Shown: piece after piece, positions 1,701 to 63,499 of the stretch
Numbering within the stretch: the stretch's first letter is position 1
Layout of the letters: every line of letters begins with the position of its first letter
Source: Sabellastarte sp. h YS-2021
Lineage: Eukaryota; Annelida; Polychaeta; Sabellida; Sabellidae
Assembly: GCA_964017235.1 (NCBI GenBank)
Contig: OZ024931.1
Location: 123,267,530 to 123,331,529 of the forward strand
DNA: 64,000 nucleotides
Direction: 5' to 3'
Translations under genes and position numbers: made by a program
The notes under the pieces: generated by a model
What the model was told of the DNA's origin: nothing
Seen by the model: the letters and a program-made list of their open reading frames with translations, nothing else
The model's database searches: none

Positions 1701-1719
1701 GGTTCACTGGCTTTGGTGA

Positions 1720-9404: not shown

Positions 9405-9420
9405 ACCATTTTTAGGCGGT

Positions 9421-21031: not shown

Positions 21032-21043
21032 TATTTAATAGTG

Positions 21044-26969: not shown

Positions 26970-28480
26970 TACCCCACAGCCCTTAAGGGCTGTCAGGGTA
27001 TTGTTTTCACCCATGGTGTCCGGATGGGTGCATGGGTGGGCGGGCAGCGGGAAGAAGTTTGTCTGGCCTGTATCTCGGAAACCATAAGATGTAGGAAGCT
27101 GATACATGGTAGTGACATTGGTTAGGGGGTGTAGGTGTGCAACGTCACAGTATGACCTTGATTTGACCTTTGACCTTGCTGTAGTGACTTTGAGTTTGAA
27201 AATCTTGTCCGGGCTATATATATCTCGGAAACTGTAAGGTGTAGGAAGTTGATACTTGGTAGGGACATTGGTTAGGTGGTGTAGGTGTGCAACGTCATGG
27301 TGTGATCTTGATTTGACCTTTGACCTTGCTGTAGTGACCTTGACCTATAAAATCTTGTCTGGTTATATCTCAGAAACCGTAAGGTGTAGGAAGTTGACAC
27401 TTGGTAGGAACATTGGTTAGGGGGTGTAGGTGTGCAACGTCATGGTGTGACCTTGATTTGACCTTTGACCTTGCTGTAGTGACCTTGACCTATAAAATCT
27501 TGTCCAGGCTATATCTTGGAAACTGTAAGGTGTAGGAAGTTGATACTTGGAAGGAACATTGGTTAGGGGGTGTAGGTGTGCAATGTTCATGGTGTGACCT
27601 TGACTTGACCTTTGACCTTGCTGTTGTGACCATGACCATTAAAATTTTGTCCGGGCTATATCTCGGAAACTGTAAGGTGTAGGAAGTGAGGATACTTGGT
27701 AGGGACATTGGTTATGGGGTGTACGTGTGCAACATCATGGTGTGACCTTGATTTGACCTTTGATCTTTCCGTGGTGTCCTTGACCTATAAAATCTTGTCT
27801 GGGCTATATCTCGGCAACCGTAAGGTGTAGGAAGTTGATACTTGGTTGGGACATTGGCTAGGGTGTTGATGTAAAACGTCATGGTGTAACCTTGACTTGA
27901 CCTTTGACCTTGCATATCTGATGCTATTTTATCTCTCTACGGGGATATCTGATACTATTTTATCTCTGTTATATCTCTCTTTTATCTTTTTACTTGAATC
28001 TTGGTTGTTGCACCTTTGGGTGTCTTTTGATGTATATTAAGCACTGTTAAAGTCATATTAGAATTCATTAACCATTTTACTTTTGCAACTTCCCATTTTT
28101 ACAAAATGGTATTGCAACAAGTGAGCCACGGGTTTTGCCCCAACTCCACATAAAAGCATGTATTGCCACATCTGTATGTATGGGTAATATTCAAAACATT
28201 GAAACCATAATTCGACCATAGAAATGAATATCAAAATGGGAGAAGTCTTAGAGCTTCATAATTTTTAAGTTTAATGAATTGACCGGTTTAAATACTTAAT
28301 CTTTACATGCAGTTTCTTTTTCTTAGATGTAATTTTCTCTACTTAAACATTATTTGGACACTGACACTGCTCTGAAAGTTTCCCGTTCTGTGTACTGTTT
28401 CAATACTTCAATATCTCATGGTGTTGAAAACTATTTCCCCAGACTGTGTGGTAGGGGCATCGCTGATGCTATTTTTTTCA
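26970..28480. mobile_element. Helentron-like element H4, copy 1, with array B
   Basis: The 5' end is a hairpin at 26970-27000 (TACCCCACAGCCC...GGGCTGTCAGGGTA around a TTAA turn). Then come about six monomers of roughly 147 bp, each with TATATCTCGGAAAC, GATACTTGGTAGGGACATTG, GGTGTAGGTGTGCAACGTCA and TTGACCTTTGACCTTGC. The 3' module ends with CTGTGTGGTA (28444), the inverse of the 5' outer arm, then a hairpin GGGGCATCGCTGATGCTAT and a T run. The same 3' module is at 51890-52010. No protein is encoded. It sits in intron 3 or downstream of the SR gene. Confidence 0.75.
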
Positions 28481-28683
28481 AACTTCAAATACAGATACTA
28501 ACACATCAATTTCTACAAGCACCAAATGCACATATGTCAAATGCAAGAACAAATACAAATATGATTCACTTAAATATTTACACAAAATACATTGTAATTC
28601 ATAAAGTAACACAGTTACACAGGAAGCTATTTAAAAGTTTAAATCTTTAAAAATATAATTCTTAGAAGCTATGAATATTTTGT

Positions 28684-29051
28684 ATATATGTTGTGACAGA
28701 ACTTAAAATTTGACAGAAAAATTGACAGGAAATTAACTCAAGTAATTAACTTGATCAAATGACAAAAACCTACTCAGGCACATATTAAAAACCTAAACCT
28801 ACTCAAGAAGCCTACAACAATAAAGAAAGTTTAGGTGCTGGTGTAGAGATCAAAATATACCAGAACAGGTAATTATAAGCAGATCACAGAGAGATCAACT
28901 ACTCAAGGGGGGGGGGGGATTTTAAAATACGTGTGTCGAAAAGTTTAACTTAAAATTTTAAGTTCTGTGAATAGAACATGGAATTTTAAATTCTGTCCAC
29001 AGATTTGAATTTAAAATTCTGTCAAATTTTAAGTTCTGTCGCTACATATAT
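28684..29051. mobile_element. Inverted-repeat element (MITE-like), 368 bp
   Basis: GACAGAACTTAAAATTTGAC at 28695 is mirrored at 29020-29040; with the outer TATATATGT the arms are about 33 bp with two or three mismatches. Internal copies of TTTAAATTCTGTC and a G10 run (28909) are present. No transposase. The boundaries could be TA-flanked, as in mariner-type elements, but this is not certain. Confidence 0.75.
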
Positions 29052-29054
29052 ATG

Positions 29055-29364
29055 TCACAGTAAATCTGCAAAATCAGTAAAAATGTGTAGTTACTGGTCT
29101 ATTGCCTCAGTTATTTCTCAGGTTTTGGGATTGGAGTTTCTGTAAATATGAGAAATGAAACTTGGGATTCACTAGTTGTATATAAATATACATAAAATTT
29201 GACAAATGTTAACTGTACAATCAATAAGTTTACTTCATTTAATAGCAATTTTACTTTATCATTTAAGAAATTTAAAATGATTTACACTGAAACAACTTTG
29301 AATATATTCTTGAAGAATCTATTGTTAACCAGAGATTTTCAGTAAGTAGTATCTTTAATTTATT
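29055..29364 (-). mobile_element. Fragment of the palindrome-ended family
   Basis: The start (ACAGTAAATCTGCAAAATCA) matches 36831, and 29280-29345 is the reverse complement of 37662-37740 (TTAACAATAGATTCTTCAAG). It is a shorter, rearranged copy of the element at 36830-38318, truncated where the next element begins. Confidence 0.7.
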
Positions 29365-29589
29365 ATATCCCCAGACGAAAGTCGGGGATATATTGGATTC
29401 AGGTCCGTCGCGCCGCCGCCGCCGCCGCCGCCGCCGTAGAAATTTCCTTGTGGACGCGATACCTCAAAAACAAATTAATTTTTTTTTTTCAAACTTGGTA
29501 CACATGTTAAGGGTGCCCAAAGGAAGATCCCTATTTTAAGGTGACCTTAAACTCCCAGTAAAAAAGAACTTATGGCCACCTTAAGGTCA

Positions 29590-31420
29590 GAAATTGGACT
29601 TTTGGCCACTTAGAGCCCTGTAGGTCACAAACTATGATGCTCAGCTGGCTGAAATTTTACCTGACAACACATTAATATGTTCTTAGTACATGTGCCGAAA
29701 ATCACGACTTTAAGTTGAGGAGAAAATTGTCTTTGAGGCCCATAAATACCCCCACTTAGGGATTTTTTGCTATACTTTTCACATATTTTGCCCTATAATT
29801 TGGAAGTGGTAATTCTGATGAGTCTCAAACTGTGCTAGGTATAACTTTGATATGTAATCCTTGTCTGTAGAAAATTTTAGGGCTGTAGGTTTACCCAAAG
29901 GGGTCGACTTAAGGTCTCAAAAGTGCCCACAGAGACCCAATTTATGCACTTTTTGCCACTTTCAAGCACTGTAGCTTTCAAACTATGTCTCTCATCTAAG
30001 TTAAATATCATCTGGGAATATATCTATGTGTTTTCTTATATGTGCCCCAACATTTAGGCCTTTAATAGACAGTTAACCTGTGTATCAGGACCATAAACAC
30101 CCACCCGAGTGACCCTTATAAGACATTTTTCACATCTTTTTCCCTGTAACTTGGAAATGGTAAGTCTGAGAAGTTTCAAACTGTATTAGATATATATTCT
30201 GTGTGTAATCTTAGTATGTAACAGATTTTAAGTCTGAAGCTTTAATTTTGAAGGTCAAATTGAGGTCTCTAAAAGGCTCCCAAAGACCCAATATTTGGAC
30301 TTTTTGCTACTTTTAAGCCCTGTGAATGTCAAACTATGTGACTGATAGAGCTCAAATCCTATCTGGGAAGATATTAGTATGTTATTTATATATGTGCCAA
30401 AAATTAAGGCTTTAAGAAGACATTTAACCTGTGTATGAGGACCATAAATCCCCACCCGAGTGACCATTTTTAGACATTTTTCACATATTTTGCCCTGTAA
30501 CTTGGAAATGGTAAGTCTAAGAAGTTTCAAACTGTATTAGATGCATATTCTATGTGTAATCTTAGTATGTGACAAATTTTAAGTCTGAAGCTTTAATTTG
30601 AAGGCCACATTTAGGTCTCTAGAAGGCCCCATAAAGACCCAGTATTTGGACTTTTTGCCAATTTTAAGGCCTTTGACTGTTAAACTATGTGACTGATAGA
30701 GCTGAAATCTCATCTGGGAATACATTATTATGTTCTTTTTACATGTGCCAAAAATCAAGGCTTCAAGTAGACATTTAACCTGTGTATGAGGACCTTAAAC
30801 ACCCACCTGAGTGACCCTTTTAAGACATTTTTCACATATTTTGCTCTGTAACTTGGAAATGGTAAGTCTGAGAAGTTTCAAACTTTATTAGATACATATT
30901 CTATGTGTAATCTTAGTATGTAACAAATTTTAAGTCTGAAGCTTTAATTTGAAAGCCACATCGAGATCTCTAAAAGGCCCACAGAGACCCAATATTTGGA
31001 CTTTTTGCCACCTTTAAGCCCTGTGACTGTTAAACTATGTGATTGATGGAGCTGAAATCCCATCTGGGAATGCATTATTATGTCCTTTTTACATATGGCG
31101 AAAATCAAGGTTTTTAGTAGACATTTAACCTGTGTATGAGGGCCATAGACACTCGCCCAAGTGCCTTTTTGGACATTTTTTCCGTATTTTGCCCTGTTAT
31201 TTGGAAATGCTTAGTGTGACAAGTCTTAAACTGTATTATATATAATTTTTGTTTGTTATGTATGTCCCCCAAAAAGTTTCAGATCTGTAGTTTAATTGCT
31301 AAGGTCTCTTTAACAATTGTAAAATGCCCACAGAAACCCAATTTATGGACATTATGCCACTTTAAAGCCCAGTAACTGTCAAACTATGTGGGTTATAGAG
31401 CTGAAATCTTTGAATTTTTA
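29590..31420. repeat. 350-bp tandem array inside H2, about five units
   Basis: CCTGTGTATGAGGACC recurs at 30078, 30428, 30779 and 31129 with a diverged first unit near 29728, exactly 350-bp spacing. Each unit has two related halves, each with a 'CTGTAACTTGGAAATGG' or 'CTGTGACTGTCAAACTATG' phrase, suggesting a dimerised 175-bp ancestor. Confidence 0.9.
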
Positions 31421-31513
31421 AAAGGAAATGCCTGTCTATTTAAATTTTGAATATTAATAATGTTATGGCTATCTTAGTCTTTTAAGAACTTATTTTTGTG
31501 TGTTATACCTCTG

Positions 31514-32641
31514 CTTGCTGAGTTTTTAACTTTTTAAAATGAAACTGGTTAAACGCCGGTTAAACATATTCAAGTAGACAAAATGGACACTTTAAGTGAG
31601 CTTTAAGTCCCAATATTAATGAAATTATATCCGTATGTAGTAAAACTAGGGGATTTTTAACCCTCAACTAGCCCAGTTTTATTCAACTTGCCTCAGTTAA
31701 TTTTGACACAGCTCCTACAGTTATGAACTCATTTCAGTTGATAATCACATACTTAAAATTCTCAATTCTTTTTGTATTTGAGTACCCCTTTTATATAGAT
31801 TGTTTGTTTACCATTTTTGCTGTAGCACTCCATCTCTTTGAGAGAACATGTAAACTGTGTAAAAAAGATGTAGAAGATGAGATACATTTTGTTTGTGTTT
31901 GTCCAGCTTTAGAGCTGATTCGTATGAAATATTTCAAAATTTTAAATATAGATAAATCGAATTATTAATAGATCAATTATCAAGGGTATTAACTCATATG
32001 AATGTCAATATGGTTATTAATTTTATTTTTGATTTGTGGCAAGAAAGAAAAAGTAAATTATATTGTTAATTTTTATGTATTGAATTGCTGTCTTTATTTA
32101 CTGTATCTTACCTCAAAATATGTTTGCTCTGTTTGTTATTAACTCTCTATTTAAAGTGACTTATAAGCCCATATAGGGCTGGGTATTACTTCAATAGTTT
32201 TTGTATAATCCTTGTCAACATAATACATGTCACTATAATAAACTAATAAACTAAACTAAGTCCCAACCCACATCCCCCACCCGGATTCCCCCCACCCACC
32301 TCTGCTTGCTGAGTTTTTCACTTTTTAAAATGAAACTGGTGAAACATATTGAAGTAGACAAAATGGACACTTTAAGTGAGCTTTAAGTCCCAATATTAAT
32401 GAAATTATATCCTTATGTAGTAAAACTAGGGGATTTTTAACCCTCAACTAGCCCAGTTTTATTCAACTTGCCTCAGTTAATTTTGGCACAGCTCCTACAG
32501 TTATGAACTCATTTCAGTTGATAATCACATACTTAAAATTCTCAATTCTTTTTGTATTTGAGTACCCCTTTTATATAGATTGTTTGTTTACCATTTATGC
32601 TCAACCCACATCCCCCACCCGGATTCCCCCCACCCACCTCT
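31514..32641. repeat. Internal duplication in H2, one copy holding a LINE fragment
   Basis: Sequence 31514-31825 is repeated almost exactly at 32300-32601, and the C-rich phrase ACCCACATCCCCCACCCGG follows both (32265 and 32605). The first copy is interrupted at 31826 by a LINE 3' fragment; the second is uninterrupted. Confidence 0.9.
31826..32264 (+). mobile_element. 5'-truncated LINE 3' end
   Basis: Encodes the tail of a LINE ORF2 with the Cys/His motif CKLCKKDVEDEIHFVCVCPAL (shown here by its positions 31848-31910) and ends in a TAATAAACTAATAAACTAAA tail. The type is CR1/L2- or RTE-like; too little remains to decide. The neighbouring duplicate at 32601 is the empty site. Confidence 0.75.
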
Positions 32642-33423
32642 GGGACCTCCAGCTATATTGAGTGACACTAAATAAACAAAGGTATTTAATGATATCAGAT
32701 GAGAAACAAAGAACTCAATGGGGTTGCAGATCTTGTGTAATAGTGAGAGAGGTGTGGAGAAGGGGAGAGGGGTGGGGGTGGGAGGTGGTGGGCTTCATTA
32801 CATATAACACAAAGGGGAGTCAGAACTGAGATTGTGTCACATATTTAGGTTGCATATATATGGACCACATATATAGGTATAGAGGAAATGAATAACTGAA
32901 AACAATTTGCAAATTCTAAAAATAATATAATAAAATAATAATATAAATAATTTTTTTTAAAATAATATTTTATTTGTGAACAAATATAGAAACAGATATG
33001 CGCTTTTGGGATTATGAATTTTTGAATGGACATTGAATCATCAATCATTTAAATACTTTGAAGGAAGATTGAAAAGTATGATGAGTTGAGTTAAAAATAA
33101 TATTTTATTTGTCAACAAATATAGAAACAGATATGCTCTTTTGGGATTATTATTTTAGAATGGACATTCAATCATCAATCATTTAAATACTTTGAAAATA
33201 GGTTTAGAGTTATCATTGCAGGAAGATTGAAAATATAATTTGAGTTATGTATTCGGCGTCTGGGGATACACCATCTTCCTTGGAAGATATAAACAGAGTA
33301 GATGGATGTGCTGAAGTTCATATAATAATGGGTAATTATGTTTTTAAAAATTCCCGATCAAAACCTGTGGCGTGAGTGATGACCTGTCTGGGGATATGTT
33401 GGCGCCGAGTTGGCCCAATCTAG

Positions 33424-34949
33424 TTTTAATTAAGCGTCCCTGAAAGGGCGCTTATTTGTTTTCGCCTCAGTTTCCTCGCCGCCGCCGCCGCATTATGGTC
33501 TCCCTTGAATATCTCCCTTATTATTAGAAGGTTTCAAACCATATTTGGCAGTTATATACCTTAGGCGTGGGAAAATTTTTCTGCATGCTTAAATTTGACC
33601 TTTGACCTTTATGAAGGTCACATGATCAAAAACTATTTTTTGAAGTACACCCCCTGTCATCACAGTTCAGGAAAAACTACTTGCTACAGAGCCTTATAAT
33701 TTGATACACCTGTTCATACTATCGAAAACGCTAGCTGATTAGATTTTGGGAGCAATCCCTTGAAAAATGTCTCATTTCTGAGTGATTTTCTGACACCTTC
33801 CAATCTGAAAGCTTTAAATTTAGGCCAACCCCCCTATTATCTTCTTAAGTATTGCATTTAGAGCTATAAAATGTACTGGGAGGTAATAGGAAACCATATG
33901 TGGAGAGTCTAAATAGCCGGTCAGTTTTACCCCCCGGCCCCCCCTTATGGGTCAAACTGGGGTCATAAAATAGCTGATTTTGAGTTTTTGCCTTATATCT
34001 CCTTTATTGTTGCTTTTATAGCTTCAGAATGTATTAAGAGGTATTGGAAAAGCATATATGGAGAGTCTAAATAGCCAGTCAGTTTTACCCCCCGACCCCC
34101 CCTTATGGGTCAAACTGGGGTCATAAAATAGCCGATTTTGAGTTTTTGCCTTTATCTCCTTTATTGTTGCTTTTATAGCTTCAGAATATATTAAGAGGTA
34201 TTGGGAAAGCATATGTGGAGAGTCTAAATAGCCGGTCAGTTTTACCCCCTGGCCCCCCCTTATGGGTCAAACTGGGGTCATAAAATAGCTGATTTTGAGT
34301 TTTTGCCTTATATCTCCTTTATTGTTGCTTTTATAGCTTCAGAATGTATTAAGAGGTATTGGGAAAGCATATATGGAGAGTCTAAATAGCCGGTCAGTTT
34401 TACCCCCCGACCCCCTCTTATGGGTCAAACTGGGGTCATAAAATAGCCGATTTTGAGTTTTTGCCTTTATCTCCTTTATTGTTGCTTTTATAGCTTCAGA
34501 ATATATTAAGAGGTTTTGGGAAAGCGTATGTGGAGAGTCTAAATAGCCGGTCAGTTTTACCCCCCGACCCCCCCTTATGGGTCAAACTGGGGTCATAAAA
34601 TAGTTGCTTTGGAGTTTTGCCTTATATCTCCTTTATTGTTGCTTTTAGACCTTCAGAATGTATTAAGAGATATTGGGAAAGTATATGTGGAGAGTCTAAA
34701 TAGCCGGTCAGTTTTACCCCCCGACCCTCCCTTATGGGCCAAACTGGGGTCATAAATAGCTGCTTTGGAGTTTATGCCTTATATCTCCTTTATTGTTGCT
34801 TTTATAGCTTCAGAATGTATTAAGAGGTATTGGGAAAGCATACAGTGCAGCTTTGTGCATTCTTAGCTTTATAGCATGCTTATTAAAACCACAAAGCATT
34901 TTAAACTTTAAGGGACGCTTCGCTTTTGTTAGCAAAAGCATTCCTCTAG
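33424..34949. mobile_element. Helentron-like element H1, copy 1
   Basis: It begins at the 3' end of H2. The 5' hairpin is TAAGCGTCCCT/AGGGCGCTTA around GAA (33431-33454), followed by (CCG)n. A subterminal AAGGGACGCTT (34910-34920) is the inverse of the 5' outer arm. The 3' hairpin GCTTTTGTTAGCAAAAGC (34922-34939) is followed by ATTCCTCTAG and T. Between them lie about six monomers of 157-158 bp: GGAGAGTCTAAATAGCC at 33902, 34060, 34217, 34375, 34532 and 34689. No protein. Copies at 43191 and 47806 share all parts. Confidence 0.82.
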
Positions 34950-38318: not shown

Positions 38319-38345
38319 ATATATATATACGTATGTAGTTACATA

Positions 38346-38868: not shown

Positions 38869-38875
38869 CATGAAC

Positions 38876-39548: not shown

Positions 39549-39558
39549 ACATACCACC

Positions 39559-39598
<40 letters not shown>

Positions 39599-39600
39599 TC
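39549..39600. repeat. CCA/CTA trinucleotide run
   Basis: Five CCA-type followed by about ten CTA-type triplets, then a locally C-rich stretch to about 39960. It opens all three plus frames (poly-Thr, His/Tyr, Pro/Leu) and a minus-strand Ser/Gly frame. I do not regard any as a gene. The interval to 40744 contains nothing else supportable. Confidence 0.8.
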
Positions 39601-43190: not shown

Positions 43191-44246
43191 AAATAATTAA
43201 GCGTCCCTGAAAGGGTGCCTCTTTGTTTTCGCCTCAGTTTCCTCGCCGCCGCCGCCGCATTATGGTCTCCCTTGAATATCTCCCTTATTCTTAGAAGGTT
43301 TCAACCCATATTTGGCAGTTATATACCTTAGGCGTGGGAAAATTTTTCTGCATGCTTAACTTTGACCTTTGACCTTTATGAAGGTCACATGATCAAAAAC
43401 AATTTTTTTGAAGTACACCCCCCTGTCATCGCTGTTCAGGAAAAACTACTTGCTACACAGCCTTATAATTTGACACACCTGTTCATACTATCAAAAATGC
43501 GAGCTGATTAGATTTTGGGAGCAATCCCTTGAAAAATGTCTCATTTGTGAGTGATTTTCTGACACCTTCCAATCTGAAAGCCTTAAATTTAGGTCAACCC
43601 CCCTATTATCTTCCTGAAGTATTGCATTTAGAGCCATAAAATGTACTGGGAGGTAATAGGAAACCATATGTGGAGAGTCTAAATAGCCGGTCAGTTTTAC
43701 CCCACGGCCCCCCCCTTATGGGTCAAACTGGGGTCATAAAATAGCTGATCTTGAGTTTTGGTTATATCTCCTTTGTTGTTGCTTTTATAGCTTCAGAATG
43801 TATTAAGAGGTATTGGGAAAGCATATGTGGAGAATCTAAATAGCCGGTCAGTTTTATCCCCCAACCCCCCCTTATGGGTCAAACTGGGGTCATAAAATAG
43901 TTGCTTTGGAGTTTTGCCTTATATCTCCTTTATTGTTGCTTTTGGACCTTCAGAATGTATTAAGAGGTATTGGGAAAGCATATGTGGAGAGTCTAAATAG
44001 CCGGTCAGTTTTACCCCCCGAACCCCCCTTATGGGCCAAACTGGGGTCATAAATAGCTGCTTTGGAGTTTTTGCCTTATATCTCCTTTATCGTTGCTTTT
44101 ATAGCTTCAGAATGTATTAAGAGGTATTGGGAAAGCATACGGCGCAGCCTTGTGCATTCTTAGCTTTACAGCATGCTTATTAAAACCACAAAGCATTTTA
44201 AACTTTCAGGGATGCTTCGCTTTTGTTAGCAAAAGCATTCCTCTAG
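43191..44246. mobile_element. Helentron-like element H1, copy 2, inside DIRS-2
   Basis: Same 5' hairpin (43198 onward), (CCG)n run, about three 157-bp monomers, subterminal inverted repeat, 3' hairpin and CTCTAG at 44241-44246. The left flank ends CTTTCTTT and the right flank begins TTTTTCTTGG, so it entered a T run in the DIRS coding region. Confidence 0.85.
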
Positions 44247-47805: not shown

Positions 47806-49155
47806 GCTTCTGAAAGGGCGCTTATTTGTTTTCGCCTCAGTTTCCTCGCCGCCGCCGCATTATGGTCTCCCTGGAATATTTCCCGTATTATTAGAAGGTT
47901 TCAAACCATATTTGGCAGTTATATACCTTAGGCGTGGGAAAATTTTTCTGCATGCTTAAATTTGACCTTTAACCTTTCTGAAGGTCACATGATCAAAAAA
48001 CCCTGTCATCGCCCCCGTCATCGCAATTCAGGAAAAACTACTTGCTACACAGCCTTTATAATTTGACACACCTGTTCATACTATCGAAAACGCGAGCTGA
48101 TTAGATTTTGGGAGCAATGCCTTGAAAAATGTCTCATTTATGAGTGATTTTCTGACACCTTCTAATCTGAAAGCCTTAAATTTAGGTCAACCCCCCTATT
48201 ATCTTCCTGAAGTATTGCATTTAGAGCCATAAAATGTACTGGGAGGTAATAGGAAACCATATGTGGAGAGTCTAAATAGCCGGTCAGTTTTATCCCCCAA
48301 CCCCTCCTTATGGGTCAAACTGGGGTCATAAAATAGTTGCTTTGGAGTTTTGCCTTATATCTCCTTTATTGTTGCTTTTGGACCTTCAGAATGTATTAAG
48401 AGGTATTGGGAAAGCATATGTGGAGAGTCTAAATAGCCAGTCAGTTTTACCCCCCGGCCCTCCCTTATGGGTCAAACTGGGGTCATAAAATAGCTGATTT
48501 TGAGTTTTTGCCTTATATCTCCTTTATTGTTGCTTTTATAGCTTCAGAATGTATTAAGAGGTATTGGGAAAGCATATGTGGAGAGTCTAAATAGCCGGTC
48601 AGTTTTACCCCGACCCCCCCCCCCTTATGGGCCAAACTGGGGTCATAAATAGCTGCTTTGGAATTTTTGCCTTATATCTCCTTTATCGTTGCTTTTATAG
48701 CTTCAGAATATATTAAGAGGTATTAGGAAAGCATATGTGGAGAATCTAAATAGCCGGTCAGTTTAACCCCCGACCCCCCTTTATGGGTCAAACTGGGGTC
48801 ATAAAATAGTTGCTTTGGAGTTTTGCCTTATATCTCCTTTATTGTTGCTTTTAGACCTTCAGAATGTATTAAGAGGTATTGGGAAAGCATATGTGGCGAG
48901 TCTAAATAGCCGGTCAGTTTTATCCCCCAACCCCCCCTTATGGGTCAAACTGGGGTCATAAATAGCTGCTTTGGAGTTTTTGCCTTATGTCTCCTTTATC
49001 GTTGCTTTTATAGCTTCAGAATGTATTAAGAGGTATTGGGAAAGCATACGATGCAGCTTTGTGCATTCTTAGCTTTACAGCATACTTATTAAAACCACAA
49101 AGCATTTTAAACTTTCAGGGACACTTCGCTTTTGTTAGCAAAAGCATTCCTCTAG
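47806..49155. mobile_element. Helentron-like element H1, copy 3
   Basis: The left arm of the 5' hairpin is degraded (CTTCTGAAAGGGCGCTTA), but the (CCG)n run, leader, about five or six 157-bp monomers, subterminal ACACTTCG and the 3' hairpin TTTTGTTAGCAAAA with CTAG at 49152-49155 are all present. Confidence 0.82.
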
Positions 49156-49200
49156 TTATTGCATTAAAATCTATGAACAAGTAAGTGAGCAAGAAATTTT

Positions 49201-52010
49201 TACCGTACAGATCTCTTAAGGGCTGTATGGGTATTTCTTATGTCAGGTGATTGACAAGTCAGCCGGCGTTATTTCATCAATCTGCAGCGTCGGTGTGAAC
49301 AACTTCTCTGAAAGTACAAGGCCCAGAGACATGCTGTTACTTTTAAAAGATACCTTATCTATCGAGGATGAAAAGTATCTCAAGGTATTCAGATCTGTTC
49401 AGCTGTTTCCCAGAGCCATTGCAAGTGAGAATTTCAACACTTAATCACAATTTTCTCATTGACTTTTACAGGGATTTCTCTCATATCTTGCATATATGTA
49501 CTAGGCCACAAGTAGATTCCCTTGTGTGAGTATCAGGTGTGGATCTTTCTTAATTTTTTTTATGAATTTTTTAAATAACTTAAGCACATGATTTCGTGTT
49601 AATGCATTAATAACTTATAACTTGTATTGTATTTAGAGCATTTTGTTAAAATATGCTGTTCAGCTTCTTTTTCTGTCGGTACAACATGGTGAGTAACTTG
49701 GGAGCCTATCCCAATAGTTAAGAGAGTAATAGCAACTTTCTAACTTTTCAGTACCTTCCATGATGAATAAAATAACTTTTGACTTGCAGCTGTTGCATTT
49801 AGAGAATTTTGTATAAATATTTTATTCAGCTACTTTTGCGTCAGCTGTAACATGGTAAAATTGCAGACCAGTAACTCATTGTATAGCTGAGCAATAGCTA
49901 CATTTAGGTTATCACTGTGGAGTAAATCAGTTGTAACTTGAAAACTATTGCATTAATTTTATGGTATTTTGTTTGGGTATGTTATTCACCTACTTTTCAT
50001 GCAGCTATAACATAGTGTAATTGTGGACCTGTAGCTCATTGCAAAGCTGAGCAATAGCTACTTTCAGGTTCTCACTGTTGACTAAGTCAGTTGTTACTTG
50101 AAACCATTGCATTTAGAGCCTTTTCTTTAAATTTGTTATTCAGGTACTTTGGGGTCAGCTATAACATAGTGAATTTGTAGACCTGTAGCTTATTGCCTAG
50201 CTGAGCAATACCTACTCTTGACATTCTGACTGTTGAGTAAATCAGTTGCAATATGACAACTCTTTAAATATGTTTTTCATCTACCCTTACACCTTAACAG
50301 TTTGTACTTAACTTCTGAATACTATTAGCAGGGTACAATTATTATTTCCTTTTCTGCTTTCACTTCTACTCTGAAACTTAAAACACACAATTAACTGACA
50401 CAGAGACCGTTCAAATCTTGTCCTGGCTCTATCTCAGAAAGCATGAAGTTTGACATGTTGATGCTTGGTAGGAACATAGGTTGGGGGGTGTAAGTGTGCA
50501 ACGTTATGGTGTGACTTCAATTTGACCTTTGACCTTGCCATTATGACCTTGAGTTCAAAAATCTTGTCAGGGCAATATCCCAGAAACCGTAAGGTGTCGG
50601 AAGTTGATACTTGGTAGGGATATTGGCTGGGGGTGTAGGTGTGCAACGTCATATTGTGACATTCATTTGACCTTTGACCTTGCCATTATGACCTTGAGTT
50701 CAAAAATCTTGTCAGGGCAATATCCCAGAAACCGTAAGGTGTCGGAAGTTGATACTTGGTAGGGATATTGGCTGGGGGTGTAGGTGTGCAACGTCATATT
50801 GTGACATTCATTTGACCTTTGAACTTGCTGTAGTGACCTTGACCTTCAAAATCTTCTCTGTACTGTATCTTGGAAACTGTAAGGTGTAGAAGACTGACAC
50901 AGGGTAGTGAGATTGGTTTGGAGATGTAAGTGTGCACCGTCATGGTTTGACCTTGATTTGACCTTTAACCTTGCTGTAGTGACCTAGACCTGTAAAGTCT
51001 TGTCCAGTCAATAGCTTGGAAACCATAATGTGTAGAAGGCTGATACTTGGTAGTGACATTAATTAATGGGTGTAGGTGTGCAGTGTCATAATGTGGCCTT
51101 GAATTGACCTTGGTGTAGTGACCTTGACCTTTAAAATCTTGTCCGGGCTATATCTGGGAAACCGTAGTATGTAAGAAGTTGATACTTGGTAGAGGGTTTA
51201 GGTGTGCAACATCATGTCACAATGTTTACTCTCAAAGTCCCCTAACTTTGTACTGTGTCTTTTCTTCTATATCTTGTTGTGTTGAAAAATATTTCCCCAG
51301 GCTATGTGATACATTCTTGAAAGTTGAGTCTTGGTTTATGTAAAAAGGGTTGTCGGGGTATTGTTTTCACCCATGGTGTCTGGATGGCCGGGCTGGTGGT
51401 GGGAAAAAGTTTGTCCGGGCTGTACTTTAGAAACAATAAGGTGTATGAAGTTGATACTTGGTAGGGACATGGGTTGGGTGGTGTAAGTGTGCAATGTCAT
51501 GGTGTGCCCTTGATTTGACCTTCGACCTTGCACTTCTGTAAGGTGTAGAAGGTTGACACTTGGTATGGACATTGGTTAGGGGTTGTAGGTGTGCATCATG
51601 GTGTGACCTTTAGCGTTGGCATCATGGTGTGTTCACCTGCCATATTTGAGACATGTTTCTCTTAAGACAAAGATATATGGATGGCTGCAACTGATTATTA
51701 TATGTACTTTTACATAATTGTTCTATTTCCATTGATGTTTATTCTCCCGTTAATAAATTTTACATAATGTTTAGTTTACTGATTAATGCTGTCATATTGC
51801 TATTGAGTTGTCTTGTTTTAATACTTTTCTTTACATACATTTTCTTTCTCGTAGACATTATTTTCTCTATTAAACATTACTTGGATCTTTATATAACTGA
51901 CACTGCTCTGAAAGTATCCCGATCTCTGAACTGTTTCACTACTTTTTCTCAGGGTGTTGAAAAATATTTCCCTAGGCTCTGGGGTATGGCCATCTCTGAT
52001 GGTATTTTCT
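49201..52010. mobile_element. Helentron-like element H4, composite copy with arrays A and B
   Basis: The 5' hairpin is TACCGTACAG...CTGTATGGGTA (49201-49232). Then comes the same 5' module as at 22836 (GGCCCAGAGACATGCTG), about four to five array-A monomers to 50300, about seven array-B monomers (50410-51200) and a further block with its own GGGTATTGTTTTCACCC start at 51355. The 3' module carries CTCTGGGGTA (51977) and the hairpin GCCATCTCTGATGGT (51989-52003). The same two arrays are separate at the SR-gene locus. Confidence 0.75.
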
Positions 52011-52780
52011 TTGCACTGCTGTAGACAACATTTCTTCAAATATCTCCAGAGTTGCACAACCAATTTTCTTAAATAAAAAGGTACACAAACTACAATAAAA
52101 TACCTTCATGATGATTTGAAATTTATTGTAGCTTCAATCCTGTCTGAGATCTGAATATTTAATTTAATATGTAAGTTGTAAAGCAACCCACAAAGAAATA
52201 TTTAAACTAAATATTTTGTATTTCTTCATTTCATGTCATCTGTTACACATAAACATTTTACGTATTATTGCCTTAAAATCCATCCAGGATTCATACAGCA
52301 AAAAATATATAAAATAACCTTCATACTTTTTTGACCATTCACTCACAGAACTTCTTTAGATGTTCAATATAAATATATGTGCATCTTGTGAAAATATTTA
52401 TGGCAATAAAATCCATGCAGAATTCACATAGCAAAAATATTTTAAAGGTAATTTATTATGTTTGACAATTTCCTCACAACACTTCAGATGTCGAATATAA
52501 ATTGGGACATGTGTATCTCATGAAAATGTTTAAGTGTTCACCATTTTCAGCCTCATGCTTGCCTATTTGTAAATTTTACTAATCTATAACATTGACATAG
52601 TTTTAAGCCTTCATATTTTTAACTTTAGCAAATCTGAAATTCGATTTAATGGGCAATAATAACATGCTCCTTAAATTGAGTTCTATGCCAACTCAAAGAT
52701 GCGCCCAATTTAATATTGGTCACATAGATCACTTGTTAATATTTAAATTTATTTTATAATTTTTCATCTGTCCACTAATC
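52011..52780. other. No gene recognised
   Basis: AT-rich; two repeated phrases ('AATCCATGCAGAATTCACATA' type, shown near 52280 and 52410) hint at an old tandem repeat, otherwise nothing. Confidence 0.4.
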
Positions 52781-53265
52781 TATTAAAATCATAGAAACAG
52801 ATAAAATTGTTTTGGCATTCTTAATTTAGAATGGACAGTATGTCATTTAAATACTTTAAAAAAGGATCAAGCTTATCACTGCAGGATGATTGCAAATGTA
52901 AGCAATTTAAATACAAACTTTTCATTCTAGTTATGTACCACTCTTCTGGCGATATAATTTTCCTTTTGGAAAATACTTATCTGTACCGGTGTAAAAGGAA
53001 ATCCTCCCCCCCTGAAAATCCTCCCCCCCGGGGGGGGGAGACTTTCCTAGGAAATCATCCCCCCCACCAGGAAATCCTCCCCCCCGCCTGTTGAAAAAAA
53101 TTTTATATTGAAAAATCTATTCAGCTCAAGTTTCTCAGTTAACCCAAAGTGTAGAACAATGATTGGCAAGTTGGGTTTACATAATTAGGTAATAATGCAC
53201 AGATTACATGAAATAAGAAGAAATACACAAGACATAAATACACAAGATTTAAATATATTTTTTAC

Positions 53266-53500
53266 CTTTCTTGCCAAAGCCCACATAATACAACACTCCA
53301 TCTTTGATGGTGTAACATTTACATTTCCTCCTGAACTCCTTCTTTTGGTCTCTAGACATCCCCTCAGGATACTTTTGATTAGCCACATAATTGAAAACAA
53401 GAATTGTATCTTCCTTAAATTTGACAAACTTGTCTGTGTTAGAAACCAAATTTTGTTTCCCTTCCTCAGAACTTGTGAAATTGTCCTTTTCAGCATCCAT
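53266..53500 (-). pseudogene. GIN1/Ginger-type integrase N-terminal exon, fragment
   Basis: A 78-residue minus-strand reading from an ATG at 53500 to a GTAAAA donor after 53266. It starts MDAEKDNFTSSEEGK and contains FNYVANQKYPEGMSRDQKKE, then RRKCKCYTIKDGVLYYVG near the end. The 'YP.G.(4)K..FRRK...Y.IKDG.LYYVG' pattern is that of the N-terminal region of Ginger transposases and the host gene GIN1, just before the HHCC zinc-binding domain. The HHCC and DDE domains are not found nearby, so it is a fragment carried by the foldback-like element or an isolated exon. Recognition is by motif only and moderately sure. Confidence 0.5.
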
Positions 53501-54339
53501 TTTACATAATACTCCAATGAGATTATAAAATGATATGATTTTGGTCATTTTCCCCTGGTATTTATACACAAAAATCTGGAAGAAATTGCCATTATACACC
53601 ATAAATATATCAAACAGTTAGCTTTGTTCTTTAAAGTAGCTATAGGAGGATTAGGTTTCAAAGGCCTGAACAGGTAGGAAATTATGGGAAAGACAGTTGA
53701 AGCAACTTTGATGCAATAAACAAAACCATCCCAGGCTTTGTTGTTTTTTTTACGAAGCCTGAACAGGAGTAGAAATCAAAGACCTGAGTAGGTAGCAGAT
53801 TATGTGAAGTACTTTTAACAATGTAGGGGCAATTGCACTTGTAATCCTTCCAAAGTGAAGACAGGATAACTGTTACACTTTGATCAATTCATAGGAGAAT
53901 GTAAAGCATACAACATTAAACAAGGAGGGGCAAGAAGGGGGCTTCAATTTAAAAAAAATATATCATCAAAGGCTTAGGTTACATGAATCTAACTTAGTCA
54001 TAAAAAGGTAACTGAAAATTAAGACATATAATCATATTAATATTCTAATTTGTTCAGTTTATATCCCTTATGAATACTATTTGGGCTGTCCCTTATATAA
54101 ATGTATTCAGATTGATTTGATTATTTCCAATCCATTTAACTGCTCATTATTAAAATTATACTCAATGATATATATGCAAAATATACATTTCGGGGTTCTA
54201 TGGGAGTTACCAACAACAGTAAAAATCCAGAAAATAATACAGAAAGTATGCCACTGACAAAAGTATGCATTTAAAGTGGGGTTCCATAAAATTTTTCATT
54301 TTGTTAATAAATAGATAGATAAATTTTTTATTACACTGA

Positions 54340-54735
54340 CAGTGTGTTTTTATTTTTTGCCAAAATTCCCTGGGATTTGAAGAACTTACAGTTTCTATAT
54401 TTGCAATAATATTTTTGTTATATTGCCTCTCATAATATCGGAGTCTTTTGTCAAATGTTTTTCTTGCAGTTGAAAATTTCATTCTTAATGATTTTTTATG
54501 TTGTAAATTACTTGTTAAACATCGAGCTGACCTTTCCTTATGACACATATCTTTCCATAAGCTAGTTAATTCACTATTCCAAAATGGTTTATAACTTTTA
54601 AATTTTTTACGTAACATCTTTCCTTGAGATTTGTAATTTATATATTTATCCACTTCTGCAATAGTACATTGACAAAATTCAGAATACACAAGATCTAGCT
54701 GACACTGTTGATTTTCAGTTTTTTTAATACAAAAT
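54340..54735 (-). pseudogene. LINE ORF2 fragment between endonuclease and RT
   Basis: Minus-strand open stretch with LDLVYSEFCQCTIAEVDKYI, then YKPFWNSELTSLWKDM, RKTFDKRLRYYERQYNKNI and NPREFWQKIKTH. The order 'PFWN.EL..LWK ... RR.YDR.LR..ER.YN ... FW..IK' is the linker before the RT of CR1/L2-like LINEs. Open but lacking RT and endonuclease, and inside the foldback-like element. Confidence 0.7.
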
Positions 54736-55121
54736 TTGTGTAGTTACAGTATGGTGGGGGGGGGAGGATTTCCTAGAAGATCTGTTACGAAATCCTCCCC
54801 CCCCCCCGGGGTGGATTATTTCCTGGTGGGGGGGTCATATTCCTAGGAGTTCCTCCCCCCCGGGGTGGAGGATTTCCTAGGAAATTTACCCCCCGGGGGA
54901 GGATATCCTAGGACATCCTCCCCCCCGGGGGGGAGGATTTCCGGGGGGGAGGATTTCGTGGTACACCGGTATATTTTGTATATTAAATTGCTGAAGTTGT
55001 TGTATTACTGGGAGATTATTTTTTTCTAATTATTGTGACATACATGATTAATACTTAAAAGCCTGTGGCCTGAGTGAAGACCTGTCTTGGGATATGTTTG
55101 TGCCAAGTTGGCCCTATCTAG

Positions 55122-56405: not shown

Positions 56406-56860
56406 ATAATCAGACTTATGTTTTCAGTCAAAGGGCTCATCTTTTCAGTTGTAAGACTTGTGTTTTCAGTAAAAGGGCTCATCTTCCCAGCTATAAGACT
56501 TAGGCTTAAGTTTAAAAGCTCATCTTTTTAGTTGTAAGACTTAGCTTTTCAGTCAAAGGGCTCATTTTTTCAGCTGTAAGACTTATTGTGTTCAATCATA
56601 AGGTTAATCTTCCCACTTTTAAGACTGATGTTTTCAGTCAAAAGGCTCATATTCCTGTTGTAAGACTTATGTTTTCAGTCAAAAGGATCACCTTTCCAGT
56701 TTGCAAGACTTATGTTTTCAGTCAAAAGTTTCATCTTTCCAGTTCTAAGACTTATGTTTTCAATCATAGGGCTCACCTTCATAGTTGTAAAACTTACTTT
56801 TCAATCAGATGGCTCACCTTCATAGTTGTAAGACTTAGCTTTTCAGTCTTATGGCAGACT
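56406..56860. repeat. Minisatellite, about 44-bp unit, about ten copies
   Basis: Imperfect copies of AGACTTATGTTTTCAGTCAA followed by AAGGCTCATCTTTCCAGTTGTA. The ORF at 56588-56920 is an open frame of the repeat. Confidence 0.88.
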
Positions 56861-58327: not shown

Positions 58328-58570
58328 GGGGGCCATGGTGGCGCAGTGGTAACACACTCGCCGCCCACCTCTGAGGTTGGCAGTTAAAAACCCTGGACCT
58401 TATGTGGGAAAGTTGGTAGTTGCTTACTGATGGTTGGAAGTTTCCAGTAAAGAACCTTGACCAACTGTATGTACTGGTTTTTATTGCCCACAAAACTACC
58501 TGTCGTGATATATGACCTGTACAGTGTTGAAAGTACAATGTAAAACCCCAAATAAATACAATAAATAAGT
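58328..58570 (+). mobile_element. SINE copy
   Basis: Same family as 20797: GGGGGCCATGGTGGCGCAGT head with a diverged B-box, TGTACTGGTTTTTATTGCCC, GTGATATATGACCTGTACAG and a CAAATAAATACAATAAATAA tail. No clear duplication. Confidence 0.9.
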
Positions 58571-59945
58571 AAACGTATGGATAATTATTATAATTCTGTT
58601 AATACTGCCTGTTTTTCACACAGCTATTTTTATCCTGGTTGTCACTGTTCCTTTCAGAATCCTCAACATTCTAAGGAATTACAAATTCTGAAAAATTTGT
58701 GTTATTTTTTTTAATTGTTTTCTAAGAAAACGATTCTTTCAACAATCTAACAATTAAGGCCTTTACAATATAATCCAATACACTAAGCTCCGACACAAAA
58801 TTACTTCAAACTAAAGATATTGATGAAATCTTTCCAAAATGGCCCCAGAAATACAAAAGTTGTGTGAATTTAAAACAGAGTTACATGTCATTAGCAAACA
58901 GTATTCTGATTCTGATAAAAGCTGTAGTAGAAATCTTAAAAATGAGGATCGTTCTGTATGGTGTTGTTTTGCTGGGTATACACAAGGTATGTGACCCAGT
59001 TTCAACTGAGTTGTCAGATCGTCGTGTATTGGCATTGCTGCTTATTTTATTATGAGTCTTTAGAGTGATTCTGAGATTCTGAGAATGTCAGTGAATATTG
59101 ACCAAGGTACTATCATGCAGCTCTTGTTTCTATTTTTATTAATATTACAAAAGGTGTTTCAACATATGAGGAAGTTTTGTAGTCAGTTTAAAGGCGTTGT
59201 CTGAGATCTAATCGGACTTGTTGTAAAGGGACTTTTGTCACACACTTTTTACTTCCTTCTTTTCTGTGTTCTTTTTAAAATTTGTGTACATAGTGTATGC
59301 GTTGTGTCTCTATTAACATAACAACGTTTGATTGAAGCATAAAGTGTTACATGGAGCATAATGAAATGATACATGTTCAATAGAATTGTCACAAGCAAAC
59401 ACCCAGTTTATGCCAGGGAGAATTTGACAAAATATCAAGTTGAAAGAAGTTCACAGTGTGTCTGTTTCTCTGTGCTACTTATATTCTCACACTCTAGATT
59501 TGTTACATTTATAACTGTGTTCAGTTTTTTTTTATTTCATTGTGACATGGGTTGGCAGACCTTGTTTTTTATCTATGACTTGTATTTTTATCATACTTAT
59601 ATATGCATAGCTTCTATATTCAGTTAAATTGCAATAAATGGTTTTTCTTTGATACCCTGAGATGTAAGCAAACATAATAAAAAGTTAAAAACTGATACTG
59701 TCAGTTAAGATGTGTTTATTTTTTGGTCTTGCTGTCTTGAAAAGAATCATTGTTGCTGAAGTTTAAATATTCTTTTCTAAATGTAACGTGTTTTGTTGTT
59801 TTTCTCATTCAAAGACACACTGTACATAAATCTGAGTAAAATGTTTGCTGCATAACTAGGTCAAGTGTTTCTAATACTTATTATTACCTGGTAATGTCTG
59901 CATGTTTACAGTGATCTGCTTTAAAATTCTTTTGTTAAAAGTTTT
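58571..59945. other. No gene recognised
   Basis: AT-rich; no feature supported. Confidence 0.45.
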
Positions 59946-60166
59946 AAAGTGTAGAGTAAGAAATGTAAAATTCGCCACATATCTGAAATTTGCCACATGT
60001 GGAAAGACTAATAAAATAAGTGAATTGAGGTGAGATTTGTTGATTGTATAGTAAATTAAGGCTTTTTGAACTGGAACAGACCAAAGTTTAAGACAAAAAA
60101 TCTTTTTTAATTAAGCTTTAAGCTTTTTAGAGGTGGCGAATTTTAGATTCCTTACTCTAACACTTT
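59946..60166. mobile_element. MITE-like inverted-repeat element, about 220 bp
   Basis: AAAGTGTAGAGTAAGAAATG and TAAAATTCGCCAC at the left are mirrored by GTGGCGAATTTTA and ATTCCTTACTCTAACACTTT at the right: arms of about 31 bp with a few mismatches. No ORF. TSD not resolved. Confidence 0.8.
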
Positions 60167-60189
60167 TGAATTACACAGAAGAATTTAAT

Positions 60190-61383
60190 GTGTGATATTT
60201 AAAATTACTACCTCTGCTAGAAGTTTATGTTTTGGGGTGCACTTGTCTGTGTTTGTGTTTACTCCAAAAGTAATAAACAGATCTTTATGAAATGTTTTCA
60301 TAATAGTTGGGTAAGGCCTGACCAAGGCTAATCCTATAATCTGGACATAAAAAGCCTGAATTTTTAAAAGTTCCGTTTGCAATGCATTTTCTGTGACTTT
60401 GGCTTTCTGGTTGACATTACAGCAGAAGCAAAAAAGCAGATCTTTGTGAAATGTGGGCATGGCTATAGGAAGAAGTAAGTAAGTGTCCCTTGAAAAGGAG
60501 ACAGTTATTGGTTCCACCCCCTTTTTTCAGACAGCCTATGCCACTGCCAAAGTTTATTCTAAGTTGAATATCACTCTAGATATAAGGCCTATCAAAATGA
60601 TTTTGGTAGTTATAATCTATAGGCATGGGAACATTTTTTGACAGGTACGAAATTGACCTTTGACCTTTATCAAGGTCACATGATCAAATGCAATTTTGTT
60701 CTTGTACGTCCTTTTCATCAGATTTTCTAAGAACTACTAGATAGGGATCAACAAAACTCGGCCAACTCTTTCCTCACATCACAAACTTGGTGCCAGTCAA
60801 ATTTTAGATCAATCAGGTCATAATTGATCGATTGAGAGCCGATTGATTATTGATTAGTAAAAGCATGCTGAAATTGACCCTTTTGGGCACATTGTGTGTA
60901 TCTTCTCACATTGAGGACCTTACACAGGTTCAATATGTTATTGATGCATGAAAATTGGCTTTGCAGCTTCAAAAGTTAGATCCTCGTGTTAATGTCACCT
61001 TTAAATCAGCCAAATCAAGTATCTTGGTATGCAGTATACAAGCAGAAGAGATTCATTAGTAAAATGTCAAATATCTCTTTTACTTTTGGATTTAGATCTT
61101 TGAAATGTATTGAGATGTAACAGGAAATAATGGCCTGGAATTCACATCAAATTCCCCTCTCCCCAAGCCCCCCTCAAGGTCAAACTGGGGCCATAAAGTT
61201 GAATTTATTGTATTTTGAAGTTTATGTACAAAATTTTTGCCAGAAATCCTATAAAACTTAATTGAATTATTCTTCAGGCTATTCAGCCTTAAGGTGTGGC
61301 TTTTGCTCCCTTCTTATCTTTCAAGGTCCGTTTTATGACCCTAAATGGATAAGATTTTCACTTATTGCTCAATATCTCTGTAG
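60190..61383. repeat. Older Helentron-like/satellite unit, left part
   Basis: 60560-60720 resembles the H1 leader (TAGGCATGGGAACATTTTTT, TGACCTTTGACCTTTATCAA, GGTCACATGATCAAA), and 61070-61210 is a satellite monomer with CCCCCCTCAAGGTCAAACTG. It stops at 61383 and resumes at 63500. Confidence 0.65.
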
Positions 61384-63499
61384 TTATTAAGTGGCCCGTC
61401 AGGGGCGCTTAATTGTTTTCACGTAAGTTCGACTGATGACCACCGCCGCCACCGCAGACAACTTCTTGGGCTTTCAAATTTTTCTTTCCTTCTTATCTTT
61501 CTTTAAAACTATAGGGGTGGGAAAAATTTTTGGGATACTTTGCGGAGACCTTTAGCTTTACTTAAGGTAACCTTAAGCATTTTTCAAAAACACCCCGTCA
61601 TCGTGTTTCGGAAAAAAACAGACACACCTATGCTATAAAATTTATCAGGTACATTCTAGACCTAAATCCGCAGGTCAGAAAGGATTTTCTGATCAATCGG
61701 ACCATAGATGCCTGACTGGGAGGCGTTTTATTTTCGTAAATTTTTTTTAAATGGGTACTTGATCTGTATCTCAAAAATGGTCAGGATTTCGGCGTTTTGT
61801 TGGAATAAGTTATTCAGCTACTTTTTGATAATCTTTCACATGCTGAAGTTTTAGCCCTGTTATAATCTACAATCTTAAGGTAAACTGAATGTCAAAAAAG
61901 GGGATTTTAGCCCTCCAGTTCACTTAGTTTTTGACTTTTTTCAACTAAACTTGGCATATATATATATTACGATTTACCAAAGGATTATCCTGACTTTATG
62001 GTGACCTTAAACTGTTAATATAATTGGAGCTATGGCCCCCCCTAAAGTCATAAAATTGGAATAAAGCCATCTGGCCATTTTCTTTTTCCTTATCTAATGT
62101 ATATTGATATTGAAGGGACATTCTCAGTTTATGGTCACCTTAAAGTTGCAATATAAATGACATTATGGTCACCTTACAGTGAAAAAAGGAAGTTTTCAGC
62201 CTCCAGCTATCTTATTGTTCAACTGCCCTGAGCTAAACTTTATGCACTTATAAAGGATGACAAAAGGGACATTCTTATTTTATGGTCACCTTGAAGTCCC
62301 AATATGAGTCAAGTTATGGCCACCTTACAGTGAAATGGTGGAGTTTTTAATCTCCAGCTATTGTATTGTTAAGCTGACCTCAGTTAAATTTTGCACACTT
62401 ATTAAAGATGAAAATAGGGACATTCTTATTTTCTTTCCACCTTGGAGTTCCAATACAAGCACAGTCATGGCCATCTTGAAGTAAAATGAGGGTTTCCTGC
62501 TCCCAACTGACTTACTGTTCAATGACATCAGTTCAACTTAACACATTGATTAAGTTTAAGGAAGACTTCTAATGACCTTTTTATTTAAAATTCCTGTATT
62601 TAAGAGACTTTGGCCAACTTAACATAATAAATATATAGTTTTCCTCCCACCTCATTTATTTTAAGACTTTTTAAAACCACACCTGCCACATGTATACTTA
62701 AAACAAAATTTCTGTTATCTGGCAAAGCAAACCTCCTAGTGTTTTTGAAGTTATGGCATCTTCAAAGAAAAAAATGAGGTAGTTAGCATGCAGTGATGTG
62801 GTTATTAATATATTGCAGCTGATCAGTGTTCATATAATAAAAATTCCCAATTTTAGGCACATTAAAAAAATCCCACATGTGGATATGACTTTTCCTTTTT
62901 GGGAAAAAAAGCATTAATTAATTCAGCCTTTTGTTTAGCAGCAGGAGTTGTTGATCTAGCTACTTATTCACATACAGTATGTAAATTGGTCAAATATATA
63001 GACTTGACTTCTTTCAGAAGATAAGATGACTGGAAAAAAACACTTTCTCATAAACAGTTGTTTTATCTTAAGCATATTTGTCTTAGAAAAATATTAAATA
63101 GCAATGAATTTTCAAAGGCATAAAATGCCTCAAAGATATGAGTGTCCCTATCTATAGCCAATTATAGTTTACTACAGTGTATCTTTATCATTATAAATCT
63201 AGGATTAAATATCTCCTGGAAAAAATTTACAATCCCAAATTTACGATCCCAAATTTACAGCAAAAATGATATATTCTTTTCATACAATATACCACTCTAC
63301 GAAACACAATAAGGGTCACATTGTGCTTACAGTCTAATACTGCAACTGATACAGTTTTTAGATAATCCACTTTCCATTAGATACAAAACACAGTAAAGCT
63401 TACCTTCTCCTTACAGTCTTATACCACAACTACTACAGCTTTCTTAACTCAAGTCTCCATCCAGGCCGCTCGTTTTTGTTAGCAAAAACCTTTTTCTAG
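61384..63499. mobile_element. Helentron-like element H3 (2116 bp)
   Basis: The 5' hairpin (TTAAGTGGCCC/GGGGCGCTTAA around GTCA, from about 61386) is followed by CCGCCGCCACCGC. About four units of roughly 140 bp lie between 61940 and 62560, each with GGACATTCTTATTT-type and GTCCCAATATGAGTCAAGTT-type phrases, related to parts of H2. The 3' hairpin GTTTTTGTTAGCAAAAAC (63472-63489) is followed by CTTTTTCTAG (63490-63499) and T. No protein. Confidence 0.75.

Follow-up and report, generated by a model that had tools for sequence, protein, structure and literature searches.

Helentrons and their non-coding derivatives, the non-autonomous Helentrons (HINEs) and DINE-1, are characterized by subterminal inverted repeats (subTIRs), a 3' stem-loop and T-rich insertion sites, and have relatives encoding Rep, helicase and endonuclease domains (PMC4067079; this and the other papers given by PMC number are cited for excerpts of their text). 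The end logic of the Helitron2 group was described in 2013 (PMC3627910) and comprises a 5' hairpin formed by an asymmetric terminal inverted repeat (ATIR) and a 3' ATIR just upstream of a 3' hairpin, as also found in FoHeli1/2 of Fusarium (PMC5148889). In the oyster Crassostrea gigas, 11 Cg_HINE elements contain a 5' subTIR, a complementary inverted repeat, a microsatellite, a satellite-DNA-like array, a 3' subTIR and a palindrome; some are unrelated in all segments and some families are related at their ends only (PMC7492417). The same source names the small bivalve elements Pearl, DTC84 and MgE, which we liken to the present ones by description only; Pearl, which has short arrays with repeats of about 160 bp, has been reclassified as a non-autonomous Helentron. 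Here we describe elements H1-H6 in a 64-kb stretch of the genome of the polychaete Sabellastarte sp. h YS-2021 (GCA_964017235.1, contig OZ024931.1, positions 123,267,530 to 123,331,529; hereafter the window), which are almost certainly non-autonomous Helentrons of the Helitron2 group.

Ends, arrays and empty sites of such elements have been described before (PMC4067079, PMC7492417, PMC3627910, PMC5148889, PMC5139131, PMC12628747, PMC10294476, PMC8905726, PMC11136912). H1-H6 are of this known kind and, as far as tested, are new families. An earlier note on this DNA had recognized H1-H4 and matched their termini to those of Helentrons and HINEs, a view supported by their subTIRs, 5' hairpins, arrays and T-rich sites lacking long duplications. 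The satellite-carrying design that it regarded as unusually strict had already been published for the oyster Cg_HINEs and for Helitron2 ends (PMC7492417, PMC3627910). The oyster pattern, in which HINEs spread satellite arrays, also holds in this genome, where H1 is present in thousands of copies.

Architecture, ends and kinship of H1-H6

H1-H4 share a layout of 5' subTIR and its hairpin partner, tandem array, 3' subTIR and 3' hairpin, the last being weak in H2. Tandem arrays occur in all HINE families of the window, including each of the four in which the earlier note had reported them, and the CCG microsatellite that it placed just inside the 5' end of H1-H3 is visible there and lacking in H4 and H5. 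The window holds three copies of H1, two of H2 and three of H4, some of them truncated, and single copies of H3 and H5. H5 and H6 are additions to the four elements first recognized; H5 was picked out by a strict structural scan and H6 by comparing the ends of an autonomous element with the window.

H5, 32..1773, + strand: 5' TATCCACTGG/CCGGTGGATA hairpin, 147-bp array (427-1699), 3' subTIR CCTGTGGATA (1729), 3' hairpin GCATCGG-TTTT-CCGATGC, end CTAG|TTTT; first base uncertain
H6, 9409..10031, + strand: 623 bp, worn, HINE-like; 156-bp array (9426-9877), ends TTTTTAGGCGGTTTG ... CTCTGACCCTCTTGT
H4a, 26970..28474, + strand: TACCCCACAG hairpin, 145-bp array (27059-27913), 3' subTIR CTGTGTGGTA (28444), 3' palindrome GCATC-GCT-GATGC, end TATTT, no CTAG; exact end uncertain
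H2a, 29363..33423, + strand: 4061 bp; TT and ATATCCCCAGAC hairpin, CCG microsatellite, 351-bp array (29776-31408), 3' subTIR GTCTGGGGATAT (33386), end CTAG|TTTT
H1a, 33430..34949, + strand: TT and AAGCGTCCCT hairpin, CCG microsatellite, 157-bp array (33838-34842), 3' subTIR AGGGACGCTT (34911), 3' hairpin GCTTTTG-TTAG-CAAAAGC, end CTAG|TT; starts 6 bases past the end of H2a
H1b, 43197..44246, + strand: second H1 copy, within a retroelement-like reading frame
H1c, 47807..49155, + strand: third H1 copy, 5' end truncated
H4b, 49201..51330, + strand: H4-like 5' hairpin, units of about 155-160 bp (49793-50248), then 145-bp array (50457-51192); 3' end at 51330 worn and inferred
H4c, 51345..52010, + strand: 5'-truncated H4 copy with 3' palindrome CCATC-TCT-GATGG; limits inferred
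H2b, 52780..55121, + strand: 3' part of a second H2 copy, end CTAG|TTTT; left limit inferred
H3, 61387..63499, + strand: TT and AAGTGGCCC hairpin, CCG microsatellite, 151-bp array (62113-62491), worn 3' subTIR AGGCCGCTC (63463), 3' hairpin GTTTTTG-TTAG-CAAAAAC, end CTAG|TT

This segment order is that of the Cg_HINEs, some of which also carry two consecutive arrays like H4b (PMC7492417). A further element, with inverted ACCGGTGTA-like ends and C/G runs, is nested in H2b and interrupts it at about 52981-54973. H5 itself appears to be inserted in a retroelement-like frame, and a worn relic resembling the left part of H1 (79% over 96-99 bases) lies at 60480-60700.

The 5' and 3' subTIRs match at 10 of 10 bases in H1, 12 of 12 in H2, 9 of 10 in both H4 and H5 and 8 of 10 in H6; in the worn H3 pair, whose weakness the earlier note had recorded, they match at 6 of 9. 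At least 11 identical bases, the family rule of PMC4067079, are found in H2 alone among the copies measured. The outer 5' arm was said to recur in inverted form near the 3' end, which is exact for H1 (AAGCGTCCCT at 33432, its inverse at 34911) and for H2 (ATATCCCCAGAC at 29365, its inverse at 33386, with 0 expected by chance). The H4 arm as quoted, CTGTGGGGTA, is absent from the + strand of the window, where the nearest forms, CTGTGTGGTA at 28444 and CTCTGGGGTA at 51977, have one mismatch each. With up to one mismatch, both strands hold eight matches against 2.84 expected (two of them exact, both on the - strand and one being the 5' arm itself), so that this arm alone is weak evidence; it is backed by six related H4 3' ends.

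CTAG|T, as the earlier note had read for H1-H3, closes all three window copies of H1, both of H2, and H3, and also H5, whereas H4 ends ...GATGCTATTTT. PMC4067079 gives a CTAG 3' end for the Phytophthora proto-Helentron, FoHeli1/2 end ATTTT instead (PMC5148889, the excerpted text of which makes no mention of a satellite array), and CTAG occurs 0 times in the main text of PMC7492417, to whose elements ours are likened by description. Canonical Helitrons (Helitron1) would account for the CTAG end, which fits CTRR, for a hairpin located 5-6 bases upstream of this end in H1, H3 and H5, and for the H1 and H2 sites, readable as A|T. They are nevertheless a very improbable source, since the 5' ends read TTAAGC, TTATATCC, TTAAGTGG and TTACCCC, with hairpins and no 5' TC, and since a 5' hairpin together with subTIRs is a Helitron2 mark (PMC3627910).

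The families are not as unrelated in sequence as was first thought. Judged by the alignment of their 3' ends, which have in common CTAGTT as well as the TTAG loop of the hairpin and the bases flanking it, H1 and H3 are relatives. The motif TTGTTTTCRC occurs six times in the window against 0.58 expected, each time just inside a 5' hairpin (three times in H1 and once each in H3, H4a and H4c); having been chosen after these elements were viewed, it counts as evidence by its exclusiveness and fixed place only. Among forward comparisons of arrays, H5 against two H1 arrays alone exceeded every shuffle (z 4.6 and 6.1); H3 against H4b in reverse orientation equalled the best shuffle (z 3.6), and all remaining pairs from different families gave z 2.7 or less. 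Exact-pattern scans for the H1/H3 3' end in bacterial/archaeal and viral contig collections yielded 0 and 0 matches.

Genome copies and insertion sites

The earlier note had proposed extracting genome copies with these ends, and the H1 ends do recur. In the 1.79-Gb genome searched, there are 3,645 matches to the H1 5' end with up to two mismatches in 34 bases and 2,417 exact matches to its 22-base hairpin, with 0 control matches in both cases. Ten H1 copies were fetched, namely the first ten exact matches listed, all from one contig. A 3' end lay within reach in seven, invariably CTAG|TT, giving lengths of 1,052-1,535; in the other three none was in reach. The ten and the two close window copies (up to three substitutions in the 22-base hairpin) all read TAATT|AAGCG; the frequency of TAATT among the 5-mers of the window is 0.0022. 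TAATT also precedes two further, diverged H1 5' ends close to the Rep loci R07 and R09. H3-related elements were found at two other genome loci, and a second 3' end of the H5 family is present at a fetched locus.

An H2 insertion lies in a Rep/helicase gene. One of four closely related gene copies (R04) contains a 4,056-bp H2 that is 99.5% identical end to end to the 4,061-bp H2a of the window, in the arrangement CATTGTTTATT-H2-TTTTGG, and the other three (R06, R07 and R09, 98.6-99.3% identical to R04) hold the uninterrupted site CATTGTTTATTTTGG. For H1, one copy (L036) splits an H2-type monomer, the unoccupied form of which stands at 29808 in the window, and H1b splits a reading frame whose paralogue at about 1931-2080 is collinear with it (23 versus 23 residues). 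We take the frames split by H1b to be those of DIRS-type retroelements; Pfam gave no match for the frames scanned.

At these empty sites (three paralogues for H2; one DNA-level and one protein-level comparison for H1) nothing beyond TT is duplicated, and the target-site duplications of a different mechanism, named in the earlier note as a possible refutation, were not encountered there. The 5' flank is TAATT in all 12 H1 contexts and TTATT in both H2 copies (window and R04), in the one window copy of H3 and in the one window copy of H5, the H5 reading varying with the choice of its first base. Combined with CTAG|TT on the opposite side, these flanks define a site TWATT. FoHeli1/2 insert between TNAT and T according to a figure legend of PMC5148889 (TNAT and A in its main text), which resembles TAAT|T and TTAT|T here, and Cg_HINEs likewise occupy TT-rich sites without duplication (PMC7492417).

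Miniature inverted-repeat transposable elements (MITEs) or foldback DNA transposons with internal satellites, moved by a cut-and-paste transposase, would also have short inverted repeats and no coding capacity, and such elements were in some earlier cases classed as MITEs (PMC4067079). We nonetheless consider this origin highly unlikely here, as the 3' inverted repeat is not terminal, lying about 21-35 bases before the element end, and the H1 and H2 empty sites show no duplication past TT.

Autonomous Rep/helicase relatives

The genome contains at least 24 Helitron_like_N matches, and 13 of 24 Rep loci were examined, ten with about 10 kb and three with about 7 kb on each side. Four of them (R04, R06, R07 and R09) form a Rep/helicase family, termed family A. 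R07, the copy scanned, encodes DUF6570, Helitron_like_N and PIF1, and its endonuclease match of 22.4 bits falls just below the cut-off of 24.5. R06, R07 and R09 carry both family A ends, TTTTTAGG[CT]GGGTTG...CAACCCGCC and ...CAACCCGCCTTTTGGGGCACCTCTGACCCTCTTGT, the 3' end being other than CTAG as in H4, and R04 carries neither. In all three complete copies the 5' end and the array are doubled and the 3' end is single. The sequence pieces of the family are L020/L019, L021/L022 and L025/L026, and one copy lies inside an H1 array.

H6 matches family A in its first 5' bases, array and 3' end, with 76-84% identity over the longer matches and 49 of 61 columns alike over the last 60 bases. On this sequence comparison, family A is an autonomous relative of H6 with common ends and a common satellite array, and H6 is classed as HINE-like because it shares these ends and this array. 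Because family A also has this array, it is not necessarily a cargo of independent origin in H6. This is one case in which an element with an array has a protein-coding relative that carries the array itself; according to PMC7492417, no autonomous Helentron could be related to the oyster HINEs. With this link, whether the arrays stem from an autonomous element or were gained afterwards can be tested for each family separately. No report of an autonomous Helentron sharing both array and ends with a satellite-carrying HINE emerged from a limited title-and-abstract search of openly available papers.

The search for an autonomous Rep/helicase element with the same termini, also suggested in the earlier note, thus succeeded for H6 and yielded none with both ends of H1, H2, H3, H4 or H5 in the 13 of 24 loci. 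At R01, an H1-like 5' end (85 bp, 76%) is followed after 0.7 kb by frames for Rep, PIF1 and endonuclease (endonuclease match 29.3 bits, cut-off 27.4); no 3' end matching this 5' end was found at the locus. A second Rep/helicase family (R02 and R08) adjoins an array of the 155-bp type, and no element ends could be fixed for it. The sequence pieces of this family (L012/L011 and L023/L024) represent two copies that are 97-99% identical over long stretches and have an H3-like element at the same place.

The earlier note had suggested that its four families may be one replication system with several satellite cargos; H4 and H6 differ from the other families in their 3' ends, and an autonomous relative was found for H6 only. 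H1, H2, H3 and H5 might constitute one system, in which a single Rep/helicase recognises the 5' hairpin, CTAG|T and TWATT and tolerates different subTIRs and arrays, with H4 and H6 depending on other systems. All four end CTAG|TT next to TAATT (H1) or TTATT (H2, H3, H5) flanks, and the H1 and H3 ends are homologous. However, the subTIRs differ from family to family, the 13 loci yielded no autonomous element combining CTAG|TT with these subTIRs, the H5 flank hinges on first-base placement, and the H3 relative at R08 lacks a TWATT flank; we regard a single system as possible but rather improbable. More speculative still, and in our estimate unlikely, is the idea that array and 5' hairpin serve a function in the autonomous Helentron rather than being passengers, that HINE arrays are inherited replication modules grown by rolling-circle runs past the end, and that H1, H2, H3 and H5 are served by one undiscovered Helentron cutting TWATT and ending CTAG|T. 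This idea derives from the doubled 5' end and array in all three complete family A copies. A plant study cited in PMC12628747 similarly described arrays in which several 5' ends are combined with a single 3' end, explained by rolling-circle runs.

Terminal hairpins and the proposed transposition mechanism

Hairpins were tested by folding against 200 dinucleotide shuffles. The 5' hairpins of H1a, H2a, H3, H4a, H4b and H5 were better than all 200 (z -4.5 to -6.0), which upholds the 5' terminal hairpin originally assigned to H1-H4. At the 3' end, shuffles were as good in 0/200 cases for H1 and H5, 2/200 for H3 and H4c and 5/200 for H4a. The second hairpin with which all elements were said to end is accordingly clear in H1, H3, H4a and H4c and not in H2a or H2b. 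Hairpins at both ends, which together with asymmetric terminal inverted repeats are the Helitron2 trait, are present in H1, H3, H4a and H5. Family A has a 5' hairpin with an adjacent inverted-repeat partner.

Genomic satellite arrays flanked by chance hairpins would explain why a loose window scan (subTIR, inverted repeat, subTIR, CTAGT) did not rise above chance, with eight matches against a shuffle mean of 4.2 and 3 of 30 shuffles reaching eight. Hairpin scores upstream of all 59 CTAGT sites of the window likewise showed little or no overall enrichment over control sites (18.6% versus 13.1% at score 15; 1.7% versus 2.1% at score 20), and the list of these hairpins revealed the H5 and H2b ends. 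A stricter scan gave three matches at the 59 CTAGT sites against 30 at 2,848 control sites, and one of 200 shuffles reached three; the matches are H1a, H5 and one apparent chance pair, and H2, H3, H1b and H1c were missed. A chance origin is refuted for H1 and H2 by the thousands of H1 5' ends, the fixed flanks of the fetched copies and the end-to-end H2 copy at a second locus, and has a negligible probability overall.

Several observations weigh against assigning H1-H6 to non-autonomous Helentrons. The 3' hairpins of H2 (24/200 shuffles as good for H2a, 29/200 for H2b) and family A (8/200) are weak, and H6 has neither a 5' hairpin partner arm nor a 3' hairpin (42/200). The covariation test proposed in the earlier note found two hairpins with a single two-sided change each, a level that 78/500 and 179/500 shuffles reached, too few changes for proof; H4c differs from H4a by a G-C to C-G change in its 3' palindrome. 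The extra TT could be a two-base duplication and not part of the element, a second paralogue of the H1b site, located near 16.5 kb on the - strand, falls short by two residues, and the H1-like 5' end of R01 is preceded by TAATG. To these are added the R08 flank and the negative search of 13 of 24 Rep loci for autonomous counterparts of H1-H5, both described above, and mobility itself was not observed.

If H1-H6 are non-autonomous Helentrons, as we consider almost certain, the literature suggests how they would move. Rep/helicase proteins of autonomous relatives would copy them in trans by rolling-circle replication. The subTIR and its partner form the 5' hairpin in H1-H5, the partner arm having been lost in H6, and the 3' subTIR could pair with the 5' subTIR; PMC3627910 proposes that such 5'-3' ATIR pairing opens the 5' hairpin and so sets the endpoint. 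Copying would stop at a point marked by the 3' hairpin and by the terminal CTAG|T (or its counterpart in other families), and the copy would join a T-rich site, duplicating TT at most, with the tandem arrays travelling inside. We infer from published systems that the proteins act in trans, that copying proceeds by rolling circle and what each hairpin does; the ends, the H1 copy number, the H1 and H2 insertion sites, the empty sites and the family A relative of H6 were observed in this genome. For one FoHeli subgroup, circles with joined ends are reported in PMC5148889.

The window also contains a 423-aa frame with a NADAR domain (4026-5297; E 1.7e-21), located just before a frame for an endonuclease and reverse transcriptase (5594-8197); the 423-aa frame is possibly the first frame of a long interspersed nuclear element carrying a NADAR domain. 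Furthermore, a short repeat whose start looks tRNA-like on visual inspection is present in two copies of 80% identity, at 20797-21033 and 58328-58567, and is perhaps a short interspersed nuclear element.

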